This document shows positions 15,924 through 56,205 of a stretch of 64,000 bases of DNA, one piece after another. The notes under the pieces were generated by a model. The model did not search any database. It was not told the origin of the DNA and saw only the letters and a program-made list of their open reading frames with translations. Numbering within the stretch: position 1 is the first letter of the stretch; each line of letters opens with the position of its first letter. The stretch lies in the NCBI GenBank assembly GCA_037951105.1, contig JBAMJV010002091.1, forward strand, positions 62,001-126,000. Direction: 5' to 3'. Source of the DNA: Echinarachnius parma. Lineage: Eukaryota > Echinodermata > Echinoidea > Clypeasteroida > Echinarachniidae. A program made the position numbers and the translations under genes.

Positions 15924-16834
15924 TTAATATGGAATGCTTGTTGGCCCGGGGTGCCTCGGTGTTCCAATTTTGTTACACCCTATGTCTGATAATGTATCCT
16001 ACATGTATATGAGTCAATATAGGAGCAAAGTAGTGTTTTGGGGGTTTCTTGCAATGTACAATGTGAATCTTGAACTAGTCAAAGAGGAAGGAATGTTATG
16101 GAATGCTTGTTGGCCCGGGTGAGTCGATGATCGAATTTTGTGCACCCTATATGGCGGATAATGTATCCAATACGAGTCAATGTACAGTAGAGCTAAGAAA
16201 TGTTTTGCGGGTTTCTTGCTAATGGTTGTATGTTGACTCTAATAACACTTGAAATAGTTTACTAGAAAAGAATGGTGTGAAATGCTTGTCGGCCTAGGGT
16301 GCCGCCATTTTCCATTTTCTTTACACCCTACTTCTGATAATGTCACCTAGGTGAGTAGGGGCTAAGTATCGTTTTGGGGTTTCTTGCTAATGCATGCCTG
16401 TTGACTTTAATGACACTTGAACTAGTAAAAGAAGAATGAATGTTATGGAATGCTTGTTGGCCCTGGGTGCCGCCATGTTACATTTTGTTTACACCCTTCA
16501 TCTGATAATGTTTCCTAGGTGAGTAAATATAAGGGCCAAGTAGCATTTTGGGGTTTCTTGCTAATGTATGGCTGTTGACTTTAATGACACTTGAACTAGT
16601 AAAAGAAGAAGGAACGTTATGGAATGCTTGTGGGCCCTGGGTGCCGCCATGTTCCATTTGTGTACACCCTACTTCTGATAATGTTTCCTAGGTAGGTGAG
16701 TAAATATAGGGGCTAAGTAGTGTTTTGGGGTTTTCTTGCTGATCTAGTCTGTAAGTGGCTCTTTATAACATTTATAATTTCAGCTATAGTTTAACCTGTT
16801 CTATACTAGAATTTGCAGTTCTCATATCTTTCAT

Positions 16835-17762
16835 TATTACCCACGCCGATGAAATCGGCAGGGGGTTATGTAAAGGGTTCCGTATGTTTGTTTGTTTGTT
16901 TGTTTGTTTGTTTGTTTGTTTGTTTGTCTGTTTTTTTTTTTTTTTTTTTGTTTGTTTGTGTACAAGATAACTAGAGAACGGGTGAACGGATTTGCACCAA
17001 ATTTTCAGGGAATGTTTGGATAGTGACATGGAAGAATCGATTAGATTTTGGTGATGATTGGTTGACCCCTGCAAATTCTGTGGAACCTTGAAGTTTGAGT
17101 ATGTATTTAATGCACGTGTGTGCCTAAATAATATCTGCACGTTATAGGCGCGGTACGGTAACCTCGCTGAATCCAATCGAGCAGCAACTAACAAGTTTAG
17201 TCCAGGTGTGCATCGCGATCGCGCGCACGGTACCATATGTTATGGTACGGTACTTTCGATTCCGGGTTAATTAATACGGAACGGAATTGAATTGCAACAC
17301 GCTGATCTGAACTTTGAAGCGCCAAGAAATTGGTAAGTTTCCGAAAAATACATTTATTTATTTAATAATTATTATTGACCCGACACTAATGTGAAGATGA
17401 ACAGATGTTCATTTTTACATATTGAATACATCTAGACTGGTTAGAATCAGGAAAATAGGGGAAAATGGATTGATTATACAAAAGTAAAACAGTGTGCAGT
17501 CTCATTGTCAATAATTTTGTACACTGCCTCGCCATGGGGCTGCCGCGCCGCAAGCAAGCGGCCTACACCCTGGCCTAGGCATTTTCACCAAATCGTGCCT
17601 AAAACGCGCTGGTTAGCCTGCTGTATGCACTCGTTCTGTTCAACGGTTGATCACTATGTTTTTAGGATGCATCGGTAAGCAAAACAGGGTTGAGGCCGAC
17701 GAAGGGGTAGAACAGGGCTAATGGGAGGCGTGGGTATGCTGACTTTGTCGGCCTTCTAGTTA
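16835..17762. mobile_element. TTTG-rich dispersed repeat, about 930 bp
   Basis: It begins 'attacccacgccgatgaaat', runs through a (TTTG)n plus T19 tract and 'agataactagagaacgggtg', 'acggatttgcaccaaatttt', and ends 'gggtatgctgactttgtcgg ccttctagtt'. Repeats with this order ('..gttatgt..(TTTG)n..aagataact..acggatttg..' and '..tatgc..ttctagt') are, from general knowledge, widely dispersed in marine invertebrate genomes. The interior (17100-17340, 17520-17700) is GC-richer and not understood. It splits the last units of the tandem array. Confidence 0.6.
16885..16949 (+). repeat. (TTTG)n microsatellite and T19 run
   Basis: About eleven TTTG units end in 'tgtctg' followed by 19 T. It is an internal part of the dispersed repeat, and the open frames that cross it on both strands are artefacts of the repeat. 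Confidence 0.95.
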
Positions 17763-23334: not shown

Positions 23335-25740
23335 TGGCTCATTTGCTTGTGAAATATCACTCCATTCTATGTAAATAGATCTATGTAAATAGAATACGGT
23401 AGTGTGAGGAGCCATGCTTAATTGTGCCCATAACTCCTAAATGCATCAATCAATCAAGACTCAGAGCTGCCAACCTCTAGAACATGAATTCAGTACTCTC
23501 AAGGCTCAAAATCAGTAATTTGGGGAAGAAATCAGTAATTTCCTACGCGGCTCTATGAACCTCAAAAACCAGCACTACAACACTGCGCGGACGCGGTGCG
23601 CGCATGATGCAATTAGCTTCGTCACATACTGCATGCCATGCATAGCTGCCAACATTTGGAAGCTCTGGGGTCCCAGATGCTCTCTGGTGCAATCTGAGCC
23701 TATTTTAAGGATCATTTCCCCTCAAATTCAACCCAAGTTTAAAATGGGTAAAAAAAAAAAAAAACAGTCGGTGGAACAATAAATTAGTAAATTAAAAGAA
23801 AGTAAAAATATATCAAGGTATCAACATCATTTTCAGAAAAGGAAGGGGGTAAAGGGAGAGAGGGAATGATGAGTTGCCCTAAATAGAAAATCAAATAACA
23901 GTCTACAACAATAAAATAACCAGAAAAGTTTAAGAAGTTGATTTATTTCTGATACGCCCCAAGCTTATCCTTTGTAGCCTACGGCTACGCTGATAAATAA
24001 AACAAGACAAATAAAAAAATTCACAGGATAAACATGATAAACAACAATAAAAAATAATATAGGGAGCCCCTAAATGTAGTGCTAGGATAAGGGTTCGGGT
24101 TCGGTTGTCCAAGTTAGCGATCAAAAATAATTTACACCACTAAAAACTAAGTTTAAACCACAAAAATACTGATTTCAAAATCATAGTTGTGCGACTACAT
24201 CACCATCACTAGGCATCAGTACACACCCTGCATTTCCCCTACAACTCCAGGCATAGTAAACTATGCTGACTGGGTATGCCTGCAGGGAGGGCTTGAAAAT
24301 GCCGACATCTGTCCAATTTATTGGCGATAAATGTAACATAAATCATGAATTCAAACAAAATAAACTATTACAAACAATAACAGATACCTTATCTTCCTGA
24401 TTCTGCAAACTTTTATGTCCATTTCTCTTGCATAAATATGATTTTAGATCTTTTCATGACAGCTATCTGCCGATTCGCACGTGTTTTTACTAGCTGCCTG
24501 TGTAGTATAGATATGCCTAATATTTATGCATTGCAATATGCACAACACATTACATGCGGGTGTGTACTATGTGTAAGTACATCTATTGGCATGGCGTGTG
24601 CGCCACGTTGTTTTCTTGAAATGATTTGAGACGGGAGAGACGAGGAGAGACTAGTGTGAGAAGGGAGAGGAGAAGAGAGACTGTGTGTGTGTGATAAGTA
24701 CATTAGTGCGTGTGTGCCATCGCGATCGCACGGAGCACAAATAGAAATGCATAGACGGTAGTGCATTATCGGATTTCCCAAAATCCGTAACATTTCAGCG
24801 CCATTCCGTACTCCCGTAATTGTTGTCAATTTCCGTACCAATTACGGAAAATCCGTACTAGTTGGCAGCTCTGAAGACTGTCTTCTAAACTTCTAAAATA
24901 GGAACATTTTCTTACCAATCGGTATGATATTCCAACATCATTGTCTCTTGAACGTGATCTGTTCGGTTCATTACTTTTTTGGTTCACTAAACTTTGTCAC
25001 TTTACACACACCAGTTCCATTTGATTGTCAAATATCACTCCATTCTATGTAAATATGGAGTGTAGAGTCATGCTCAATTGTGCTTGTTACTCCTAAATGC
25101 ATCAATCAATCAATCAATCAATACTGTCTTCTGAACTGCTACAATTTGCACTCTGTAGTAATATTTTCTTCAAACCAATCTCTTACCTAAAGTAAATGTA
25201 GATGTAATATTCTAACATAATCTCCAATTCTCTCCCTATTAATTCCTTCAAAAATGTGATCCGCTTGGTTAACTATTTTGGGAGTTCACCGAAATATGTC
25301 ACTGGTGTACACACCATTTAGATTCAATCGTCAAATATCACTCCATTCTATGTAAATACAAAGTGAAGAGCCATGCTCAATTGTGCTTGTAAAATTCACG
25401 GATTGATCATCATCTAAGAAGATCTTTTAAACTTACTTCTCTCTCAAGAAAAAGATTCCTTCAAAGCTCTTTTTAAAAGTAGATATTATTCAATACCTAT
25501 TCATTCACACCCCCCCCCCCCCCCTCCCGAACAATATGACATTTGCAGATCTATGCTAGTTGTTCAACTCATTATTTTTTGTTGGTTCACCAAAAATTGT
25601 CACTTCACACACAATTTCGATTTGATTATCAAATATCACTCCATTCTGTGTAAATACAGAGTGAAGAGAGTCATGCTCAATCGTGCCTGTAACTCCCCCA
25701 TTCATCTGTCAATCATTGTCAGCGACCTTCTAAATTAACG
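23335..25740. repeat. tandem array, about 300-bp unit, 4 copies
   Basis: 'aaatatcactccattctatg' followed by 'taaata' stands near 23351, 25029, 25330 and (as 'ctgtg') 25628; each is followed by 'gccatgctcaattgtgc..taactcc' and 'catcaatcaatc'. Unit spacing is about 300 bp once the 1.4-kb insertion at 23462-24873 is removed. A C15 run is at 25510-25524. Confidence 0.85.
23462..24873. mobile_element. 1.4-kb TIR element with 6-bp target duplication AAGACT
   Basis: Perfect 13-bp inverted termini CAGAGCTGCCAAC / GTTGGCAGCTCTG are flanked by AAGACT on both sides (23456-23461, 24874-24879). The tandem unit at about 25119-25140 ('caatactgtcttctgaac') shows the uninterrupted target. Near the right end 'ttccgtaccaattacggaaa' is a palindrome-like subterminal motif, and 'cgtccgta'-type words recur; near 23640 'agctgccaacatttggaagc' repeats the terminus. 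No transposase frame was found. Termini and duplication length link it to 8111-8960. Confidence 0.9.
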
Positions 25741-35300: not shown

Positions 35301-35612
35301 ACGTGACTAACATCCCTTCTAATCATCTACAAAAGGCCTGTATCTCCCATTTTTGTCGATACCCGTAATGCTTTTTTTATGATGACACACCTACAGTCAA
35401 ACCTGTCCATAATGACTACCAAGGGAATAAGGGAGACAGTAATTTGAGTAAAAGTGGCCTTTATTCACAGGTGGTCTTTATAGACAGTAACAACGTGACT
35501 AATATCCCCTCTAATTATCTACAAACGGCCCGCATCTCCCATTCCTCGTGATCGATACCCCCAAACGCATTTTGTTTTCATGACAATACAAATACATACA
35601 GGGCAATTCCAC

Positions 35613-37738
35613 GGTAACGGAAGGACATTCAGACACAATTTTGGAACTTCAATCAAATAATTCCAGGATCCTGCTTTTGATTTTTTATTCTAAATGGCAT
35701 GTCTTTGATCCTTGTTGGGACACCTTTGATTTCCACTATTTCTAAAATTTTGACCGCATTACGTAAATTAGATATGGACACTAATGAGGCCGGTAACGGA
35801 AGGACGCCAAAATGGACATGGATTTTCAAGTTTTTTAGTTATAACCCAATCTCTGTGAAGTTACGAGGTTTATCATGTTAAGTTGGCTACTAGTCAATTC
35901 CTTATGTTCACATAGTATAACACCACATTTTAAGAAAAATATCTACATTGGTATATTAATTATGAGAAATTAATTACTCCAGTGTTCGGTAACGGAAGGA
36001 CGGTAACGGAAGGACCTCTGAAAAGTCTATTGGAATTGTACAATAAAATTAATTTTGAAATTTAAAGACCATTTATGAGAAGGAAACATCTCTTTTGTGG
36101 TCTAAAATGAGTTTGTATCATAGATAGCATATGGACATCACAACCATTTACATTTCTATTTTTTTCTTACTATATTTCATGCTCCATTGGCTCTTATTCA
36201 TGGTCAATCCATGGTAACGGAAGGACACTCAGACACAAATTGTCAACTTTAAGAAAGACATTTTTAAATACTTGTGTTGTTAGAGCAGTCTATTTTGATA
36301 ACAATACTTCCAAAACATACAGTTTTAAGGTCCCATAATTGTTTTGATTTTTTTAATCTCCGCACATTATTGAATATGCATACAAATGAGGTCGGTAGCG
36401 GAAGGACACTAAAATGGACAAGGTTTTGTTATCAAATCAGTTTTAACTAAAACTCTGTGATATTAAATAATACAAAATATTTTAAGGGTACACATTTCAT
36501 TCTCTGAAGGGTTAAGAAGAATTTACTTGTTCTTTGATTAAAATTTGTCCGCAGATATTTGAGTTATTTCACACAAAGCGGACCAATGTTCGGTAACGGA
36601 AGGACTTAATGGACTATAATGTATGATATGACACAGTAGGGTCATTCCATGTCAAATCACCTTTAAAAAAATTGAAAATTCTCATCGCAGCCCCCTTCAA
36701 ATTTGCTAATATTTGGTATGTATGATATTTCAACCTTTAAAAGCGCAAATATTTAAGTTTTAGCCCAATCCGCCCAATGGTTTTGGCGCTATGGTCGATT
36801 CTTATGGGGGAGTTTTGTAAGAAATGGGCGTGGGCACCATATTTCACATGGCCATTGTCCATTAACCGTTGGGTCAATTTATTTTGTAAAGGTGCCATTG
36901 GACTGGGGATGTTATGTGCAATCCATTTATGCCATTTGTGTTCATGCATGAGCGAGTTTGGTTACGATAACCTTTGACCTTAGATTTTGACCTTCCGTTT
37001 TACCTCGTGGATCAAATAATTTTGAGAATTTTTTTGATTAAATCTTGACTTGATATAATTTCTACAACATATGAAAGAATTGGAGATATATTATTTCTTG
37101 CTTTTTCTACAGCCTTGTTTTTAGTTTGCAAATGTCATGTAAAATTTAATTATTTTAGACCTACACCCATGTCCAAGAATTCTATAGGGGTGTATTGTAT
37201 AAAAAAAAGACCTATTCAAAGTCATGATCAGAGCCTATTCACACCCTGGCTCACCACAGTTAAATAGACCTACTAATCCCCATACAATAGAAATCCAGAC
37301 AAATGGCATCATGGTATAAGGGCCCTGTTGCAAAAAGAGATAAAATCAATTGTGAGCCAGATCAAATGTTCTAAATGCACAAATCTGATTGGTTGAAATA
37401 CAGAAAATTACTAGTCTGACCAGCTACGCCACTGATAGATGGCCATTGCAGGTATTGTCTCATTATTTTGGGTTTTCATATATGAGAGACCAATTTTTGA
37501 ACATAAATTTTGTCATAATATGTAATATGAGGTACCTTGTCCATCTGTTACCATGTGTATGGTAACGGAAGGACATTTTCTTTTGTTATTTATTAATTAA
37601 CGAAGAAACAATGAGTAATACAATTGTTAGCAATGGGAAGGCCTACTTGAACTTGCTTTGCACTGAAGATTGGTCTGCTCTCTAACAATTATGTGAGCCA
37701 CAAAATTAAAAATATTGATTTTTCGGTAACGGAAGGAC
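35613..37738 (+). repeat. nine dispersed copies of the 14-mer GGTAACGGAAGGAC
   Basis: Copies start at 35613, 35792, 35988, 36002, 36213, 36394 (one change, GGTAGCGG), 36592, 37561 and 37725, all on the plus strand and all inside the 2.5-kb element. Three pairs are explained by the 600-bp duplication, but at least five independent positions remain, with unrelated flanks. The conservation of the 14-mer against diverged flanks suggests selection as a protein-binding site, possibly for the transposase. Confidence 0.9.
37318..37410. mobile_element. fragment of the 'GTTGCAGAAAGAG' fold-back family
   Basis: 'ccctgttgcaaaaagagata' followed by 'tgttctaaatgcacaaatct' and 'gattggttgaaa' matches the reverse complement of the 111-bp element at 56094-56205. 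It lies inside the 2.5-kb element. Confidence 0.65.
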
Positions 37739-38302
37739 ATTTTCATAGGCTGAAAATAAGAAGTCATTGAAGCATAACAAATCAAATAAATCATACAAAT
37801 TTACTATTTTACGAAATGGTCATATCTCGGGAGTCAGAATAATGGATTTTAGGCTTAACTGGGGAAATATAAAACAAACACAGGATCAAAACACTTTTTC
37901 ACCAAAATATCAAATTTGTGGGGTTCAATTATGGTTATAAAGTTATTATAAAAAAACAACTAAAATTATGTAAAACTAAAATGTTCTCATTGAATTCCAA
38001 AAATATAGAATTTAAGCTTTGATTTGATACCAAATTTGTATCATAAAAATGCTTGTAAAATTTTTGGTCAAATGTCCACTTTGGCGTGGAATTGCCCTAC
38101 AGTCAATCCTGTCCATAATGACCACCCAAGGGACAACAGGAGACAGTAAAAGTGGTTTTTATTTGCAGGTGGTCTTTATAAACAGTAACAACGTGATTAA
38201 TATCCCTTCTAATTATCTACAAAAGGCCCGTATCTCCCATTTCTTTTGATACCTGTAACGCTTTTTTTAAATGATACACCTACTGTCAAACCTGTCCATA
38301 AT

Positions 38303-56093: not shown

Positions 56094-56205
56094 GTCCCCA
56101 TTGCAGAAAGAGAAAATTTGCGCTTTCAACCAATCAGATTTGTGCATTTAGAACACATGATCTGACTTACAATCTATTGTATGATCTCTTTCTGCAACGG
56201 GGTCC
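56094..56205. mobile_element. about 111-bp fold-back element 'GTTGCAGAAAGAG'
   Basis: Left GTCCCCATTGCAGAAAGAG and right CTCTTTCTGCAACGGGGTCC are inverted repeats. The interior includes 'caaccaatcagatttgtgca' with a CCAAT-like word. A partial copy is at 37318-37410. Confidence 0.8.

Follow-up and report, generated by a model that had tools for sequence, protein, structure and literature searches.

The window analysed here, a stretch of 64,000 nucleotides of Echinarachnius parma DNA, raises the question of why one 14-bp word, GGTAACGGAAGGAC, should recur nine times in a single small transposon. The sequence-only reading that drew attention to this locus had reported eight exact copies of the word and one with a single mismatch, all on the plus strand, in an element with perfect 13-bp inverted ends and TACA duplications, and direct reading bears this out at all nine positions and at both ends (Table 1). 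If up to three mismatches are allowed, the window contains 13 matches to the word, against a mean of 2.23 in shuffled sequence, and 13 matches were reached in none of 100 shuffles. The termini of the element are GGGCAATTCC; one further base (A/T) can be paired beyond the 13-bp ends, at the cost of breaking the target-site duplication (TSD). A neighbouring copy of the repeat into which the element is inserted carries a single TACA, in our reading just as an empty site should. A search against Rfam gave no match within the window.

Table 1. Features of the family A element in the window (window coordinates)
Feature	Position	Strand	Remarks
Whole non-autonomous element, family A	35601..38097	+	2497 bp; 1.16% from ten-copy consensus
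Left TSD, TACA	35597..35600	.	read directly
Right TSD, TACA	38098..38101	.	read directly
Left TIR GGGCAATTCCACG	35601..35613	+	13 bp; final G is first base of motif 1
Right TIR	38085..38097	-	13 bp
Motif 1	35613..35626	+	exact copy of GGTAACGGAAGGAC
Motif 2	35792..35805	+	exact
Second box AAAATGGACATG	35809..35820	+	just after motif 2
Motif 3	35988..36001	+	exact
Motif 4	36002..36015	+	exact; in tandem with motif 3
Degenerate second copy of left part	36201..36640	+	contains motifs 5-7
Motif 5	36213..36226	+	exact; A-consensus position 614, compared with a site at 611 in family D copy L117
Motif 6	36394..36407	+	one mismatch, common to L087 alone among 39 copies
Motif 7	36592..36605	+	exact
Motif 8	37561..37574	+	exact
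Motif 9	37725..37738	+	exact; 164 bp after motif 8; ends 359 bp from right end
Right-end box AAAGTGGACATT	38071..38082	-	just inside right TIR

The internal duplication that had been proposed is real but degenerate, the units at 35601-36200 and 36201-36640 being 59% identical (258/434 aligned columns). Outside the motif, 215 of 397 unit columns agree in the consensus (54%), and because shuffled units align at 45% identity on average (maximum 50% in 20 shuffles of whole units), homology there appears only just visible. By comparison, the motif pairs of the two units are identical at 41 of 42 positions in the window copy, and in the consensus element 1/43 aligned motif positions differ between the degenerate units against 182/397 other positions. 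At the end of the second unit (window 36639-36661) lies a TIR-like word, GGGTCATTCCATGTCAAATCACC, with three mismatches to the TIR, which may be a relic end or belong to another element; the internal word at 36639 reads GGGTCATTCCATG. An 82-bp stretch at 37320-37398 recurs at 56124-56205 of the window with 84% identity, and is probably another small repeat.

Across the 1.2-Gb source genome, GGTAACGGAAGGAC has 8347 exact matches (4173 + 4174), against 5 (3 + 2) for the reversed word. The first 100 matches listed all fall in 16 clusters, 15 of which are whole or truncated copies of a family, here called A, and its subfamily B; the remaining cluster is a captured 51-bp element end. An ordinary satellite word had been named as the finding that would undo the proposal, and among these first 100 matches GGTAACGGAAGGAC is a family word rather than a satellite word: instead of forming head-to-tail arrays independent of the element, the matches cluster in element copies apart from the one captured end, and the only tandem in the window is the two-copy one of motifs 3 and 4. 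A search of viral contigs with a 15-mer (the word plus its trailing A) gave 38 stretches with one match each, which we read as chance.

Family A elements are about 2.5 kb in length and differ from one another by a median of 1.8% (39 copies). Perfect 4-bp TSDs flank 35 of the 38 copies fetched, the exceptions being L087, L109 and L112. TIRs together with a TSD of fixed length in so many copies uphold the view of the host element as a transposon of the cut-and-paste type. The target is palindromic (36 sites), its A+T-rich core of 4 bp being preceded by C/G and followed by G/C (C at -5 in 21/36, G at +1 in 21/36), giving a preference of roughly RC-WNNW-GY. The consensus has nine exact motifs; individual copies have nine (20/39), eight (15/39) or seven (4/39). 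The mismatch in motif 6 of the window element occurs in two of the 39 copies, the other being the near-identical L087 (C1170:233684-234514 and flanks), which is 99.6% identical to the window copy and has no matching 4-bp TSD. Family A contains no long ORF, the longest stop-to-stop stretch in the consensus being 105 aa, and a Pfam search of eight consensus ORFs gave nothing above the cut-off. Family A is a non-autonomous cut-and-paste DNA transposon of a eukaryotic genome.

The sequence-only reading had also held that the motif is more conserved than its flanks. This stands between subfamilies, and is not clearly so among young copies of family A. When the A consensus was compared with five older or sister copies (L069, L077, L083, L071 and L080), 5/320 motif positions differed against 340/3178 flank positions, gapped positions not being counted (Fisher p about 5e-10, a value that is optimistic because the copies were found by exact motif matches and three of the five represent one subfamily or close relatives). 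Outside this count, two bases are missing from motif 1 of L071. Flank divergence in the comparison reaches 17-19% with the word kept, so that across subfamilies the word differs far less than its surroundings do. Young copies were collected by a motif-free interior probe, which gave 28 (L086 being the window element itself, and L087 left out). Variable columns in these amounted to 15/126 in motifs and 310/2374 elsewhere (p=0.79). Variant cells were fewer in motifs (16/3509 vs 662/66315), and nine random 14-bp windows were equally low in 12% of draws. Variants common to at least two copies occupied 1/126 motif columns and 76/2374 others (one-sided p=0.09); with ten more copies the figures were 1/126 and 99/2374 (38 copies, p=0.033), and with L087 included 2/126 and 112/2374 (39 copies, p=0.065), the last value being weaker because L087 has the window's motif mismatch too. 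A deficit of this kind is to be expected if single copies decay freely and the parents are mostly copies with intact words, but it is weak and does not decide the matter. A ten-copy count (1/1260 variant cells in motifs vs 259/23720 elsewhere) was set aside as evidence for selection and replaced by the motif-free samples, because its copies had been found through the motif.

Beyond anything proposed from the window itself, the element proves to be one of at least six motif families built on a common chassis, and probably one of seven. The TIR word has 4470 matches genome-wide (2169 + 2301) against 5 for its reverse (3 + 2). From the first 100 TIR matches listed, 21 loci were fetched, chosen mostly as lying outside family A. 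Three belong to A or B (L118, L134 and L136), and the others combine the same TIR with other words, except L123, where the TIR is present and no repeated word was found. The word of family D is GGTAACTGACGTTAC; L117, with TSD ATAT, has 11 exact copies of GTAACTGACGTTAC, and L133 shows the first site only. Family E has GGTAACTCGCGTTAC (L120), family F GGTTAGTAACGTTAC (five loci), family G GTAACACCGGGAC with variants (L116 and L135), and family H CGTCACGGACATTACA (six right ends), the left TIR of H being the variant GGGCAACTCCAG in 10/10 left ends. A seventh word is tentative and comes from one right end (L131). Genome-wide counts of the words against their reversed controls are 4782/1 for H, 1678/2 for F, 1164/3 for D, 591/1 for E and 425/2 for G. 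The 4-bp TSD holds in one copy each of D and F, in one of two G copies (L116 matching at 3/4 positions), and in 4/4 H copies in which both flanks were compared. Of the A or B loci, L118 (C155:177070-177423) is a subfamily B derivative cut down by deletion to 354 bp, and its only motif has a mismatch; its TSD, AGTA, is uncertain because it lies inside an AGT-rich simple repeat.

Within a family most sites carry an identical word. A and G, and likewise D and E, are related families whose words are separated by discrete steps: GTAAC-GGAAG-GAC vs GTAAC-ACCGG-GAC, and GTAAC-TGAC-GTTAC vs GTAAC-TCGC-GTTAC. The TIR followed by GTAAC-NNNN-GTTAC occurs at 215 places, against 0 for the control, and among the 100 of these listed the centre is TGAC in 89, TCGC in 8, and TGAT, CGAC and GGAC once each; the intermediates TCAC and TGGC are absent from those 100. 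Followed by RTAAC-NNNN-GGAC, the TIR occurs at 1382 places (control 0); in the 100 listed the A word accounts for 88, the G word for 9 and single-base variants of the A word for three. Because the flanks of A and G still align weakly, these two families can be seen to carry different words at the four left sites of a recognisable common chassis.

The positions of the sites are shared much more widely than the words. The first base of motif 1 is base 13 of the left end in A, B, D, E, F, G and H; in L077, whose TIR lacks one base, it is base 12. In intact left ends the start of motif 2 falls at 190-195 and that of motif 3 at 378-391, so that sites lie directly inside the TIR, about +178 and about +190 further on, and are then usually followed by a tandem repeat, placed 14-15 bp on in most cases and 23-25 bp on in H. 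Spacer lengths agree across families within 5 bp between motifs 1 and 2 and within 12 bp between motifs 2 and 3. Exceptions are L127 and L132 of F, which have no intact motif 2 (L132 is shortened by deletion), and L133 of D, which has motif 1 only. Tandem number at site 3 is one in L077 and L127 and two in most copies, rising to three in L080 and to three or more in L120. Towards the right, one full copy was compared per family: the final pair of sites is separated by 164 bp in A, 167 bp in D, 165 bp in F and 167 bp in G, and between the end of the last site and the right end there remain 359 bp in A, 367 bp in D, 363 bp in F and 361 bp in G; in six H right ends the nearest site is 293-396 bp away.

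Coordinates of the first 100 matches listed for each word give a similar picture. Same-strand spacings below 260 bp number 44 in H, 63 in D and 40 in E, and of these 13, 10 and 16, respectively, fall at 175-183 bp and 12, 20 and 12 at 184-203 bp; D has in addition 8 spacings of 160-170 bp and 12 outside these classes besides tandems, and A and F show similar classes. The single orientation seen in the window does not extend to the whole group: neighbouring sites are on opposite strands in 19/70 pairs in H, 0/77 in D and 0/44 in E (again the first 100 matches listed), and since G too carries opposite-strand sites, orientation is not strictly fixed.

Spacer sequences are another matter. Spacers of different families are mostly no longer alignable: scored against 200 single-base shuffles, family pairs gave z values from -2.0 to 2.9, apart from A-B (about 20) and A/B-G (2.4-4.4), in which homology remains. 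For 25 nt following motif 2, z is at least 2.4 in every pair; this stretch holds an A-run and GGACATG or AGACATG (box 2), found in B, D, E, F and G at the place of AAAATGGACATG in A. Box 2 also lies just inside the right TIR in A, one B copy (L083), G (L116 and L138) and L125/L129, and with one change in L124; variant forms occur at the right ends of D, F and L123, and none is evident in those of L118, L119, L126, L128, L131 and L136.

By analogy with the TNPA sites of En/Spm, the repeated words are probably binding sites of a family-specific protein, supplied in trans and needed for transposition, which would work in much the same way on other ends and another TSD. The window element is a non-autonomous member of a large cut-and-paste group sharing the TIR GGGCAATTCCACG (as its left variant in H), a 4-bp TSD and a left-hand box 2, which many members repeat inside the right TIR. 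Two layers of recognition may be pictured, in which a common activity would read TIR and box 2 and the array would serve as the family-specific address. The array-binding protein could be the DNA-binding part of the transposase or an accessory protein like TNPA; by binding the array it would help to assemble the ends and so decide which family moves. Copies with broken arrays would not be copied onward, so that the word would be kept across transposition lineages as the flanks drift; were recognition to change, the word would change over the whole array with the site positions staying as they are. The anatomy, the TSD, the target preference, the match counts, the conservation of the word between subfamilies and the presence of different words at equivalent positions in several families are observed; that a protein is involved, where it comes from, what it does in transposition and in what order a change of word proceeds are things that we infer. 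The opposite-strand sites of G and H are points against this proposal, as is the F copy read, which has no exact site near 611-614, where A and D have theirs.

A host factor would leave the same footprint as a transposition protein, and the main rival explanation is that the words are sites for a host protein (an activator, a chromatin protein or a repair factor) which the elements exploit, for example for expression or accessibility, the words of different families tracking different host factors. We consider this unlikely. The nucleosome repeat range covers the spacings of 164-212 bp, which is suggestive only; the A word contains TAACGG and CGGAAG, which we take to resemble Myb and Ets cores; and family A elements have no long ORF of their own. 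Against it, the first 100 matches listed, of 8347, place the A word nowhere but in this transposon group and the one captured end; one word adjoins the left TIR, where end recognition happens; and host factors do not easily account for one chassis with several different words at corresponding places.

It is distinctly improbable that the arrays arose by copying of the word between sites, through slippage or gene conversion, and were homogenised without function. The variable tandem number at site 3, the concerted words over an element and the lack of a clear depletion of mutations in the words of young family A copies would all fit such a process. Conversion without selection, however, would be expected to carry flanks along with the word, and under it positions would be free to shift, whereas the flanks of most families are unalignable and their spacer lengths nonetheless agree within 5 bp and 12 bp; moreover, the word outlasts the flanks between subfamilies. 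Very improbable indeed is the idea that the sites are repressor targets read by host silencing proteins, the new words being escape variants, for although the discrete differences between A and G and between D and E fit repeated escape, a silencing target should decay under selection, and here the word is kept over 17-19% flank divergence, 35 of 39 copies have eight or nine exact sites, and the tandem gains of the word in L080 and L120 go in the wrong direction.

A further and more tentative suggestion is that the families use a switchable address code, for which we would claim somewhat less than an even chance. One frozen chassis of TIR, box 2 and site positions would then carry the words of at least six families, probably seven, and the whole-array changes of word in discrete steps would record repeated changes in the specificity of a DNA-binding protein, the geometry of the complex being constant. 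Such a code may require that the word be rewritten at every site by some form of copying.

Transposons with arrays of family-specific sites are known already, for example in plants. Here a single genome holds at least six alternative words; the chassis that carries them is recognisably one, the exact sites run to thousands and their spacing is conserved. The elements behave as if each family carried its own address label, a word of about 14-16 letters, for the protein that moves it. Related family pairs differ by a few central bases throughout the array, and so allow a direct test of how a DNA-binding protein and its sites co-evolve. The families also offer a sharp means of tracking down the missing autonomous element and of asking which of the two, spacing (geometry) or word (sequence), governs mobilisation.

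Among known systems, Ac has many short subterminal sites that are needed for transposition; its word is a 6-mer, and hAT TSDs are of 8 bp. The AcademX nuclease is of the XPG type. Sola and Kolobok have 4-bp TSDs, the target of Kolobok is TTAA, and Ginger ends are TGT. The present group is like Ac/Ds and other hAT elements in its many short sites, which in hAT are subterminal and needed for transposition, as is reported for Kat1 (PMC4763223), but unlike them in its 4-bp TSD and words of about 14-16 letters. A 4-bp TSD is shared with Sola, Ginger, Kolobok and piggyBac, those of Ginger and piggyBac being given in a section of PMC10045372; unlike the TTAA target of Kolobok, and of piggyBac as stated in part of PMC5199201, TTAA forms the TSD here in 1/38 family A flank pairs (L103). 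The same section of PMC10045372 gives AcademX elements 3-4-bp TSDs, a range that includes the 4 bp found here, and a nuclease gene. The XPG_I profile finds only three places genome-wide, and family A has no long ORF.

The group resembles En/Spm (CACTA) and soybean Tgm/Tgmt elements in having conserved ends and arrays of a short family-specific word, with different words within one genome. In the passages concerned, PMC2613891 describes recognition of the En/Spm subterminal repeats by TNPA, with a 12-bp repeat in En-1, a large En/Spm protein that is the putative transposase for excision and integration, words that differ between Tgm1 and the Tgmt family, and a 3-bp TSD in Tgmt. The need of non-autonomous En/Spm and Tgm/Tgmt copies for cis sequences may be counted as a further likeness, and an array of a short repeated word is present here, its binding by a TNPA-like protein being putative. 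The differences are that the ends are GGGCA rather than CACTA/G, that the TSD is 4 bp rather than the 3 bp of Tgmt, that the sites are spread over the element at fixed positions roughly 180-200 bp apart instead of being subterminal only, and that the copies of the word along the array are identical or almost identical (with variants in G). Literature text searches for the TIR and motif words gave no transposon paper among the matches listed, as judged by title and start of abstract.

A search for an autonomous copy, which the sequence-only reading had called for, found neither such a copy nor a transposase gene in one family model, three long candidates (whole or in part) and eight ORFs, and for this reason the proposed mechanism has no direct link to a protein. 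Three candidate partners were rejected. L076 (C51) has 51 bp of the left end only, and is another young mosaic repeat with a captured end; window positions 16834-17489 and 23462-24624 are parts of this one repeat, joined in C51 at 97-100% identity, and it occurs at 18 places in the genome with a common 290 bp at 100%, including the captured 51-bp transposon end. The 5463-bp TIR pair of L116 (C21) is a family G element with no ORF over 106 aa. The candidate in C399 is a D element whose 4.7-kb gap is a nested unrelated element. This nested element (L139, C399:95470-100220) has the TIR TACCCAGGGGGCAAA and two 1.3-kb inverted arms that are 93% alike, and in our reading is apparently flanked by a 3-bp TSD, GTA; its ORFs of 270, 138 and 132 aa gave no Pfam match above the cut-off, and may resemble Academ-type proteins. 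At three long family G places, in C704, C1523 and C1699, the 5' and 3' sites are 3-5 kb apart against a usual distance of about 0.8 kb, and these are candidates for a coding member or for nested inserts.
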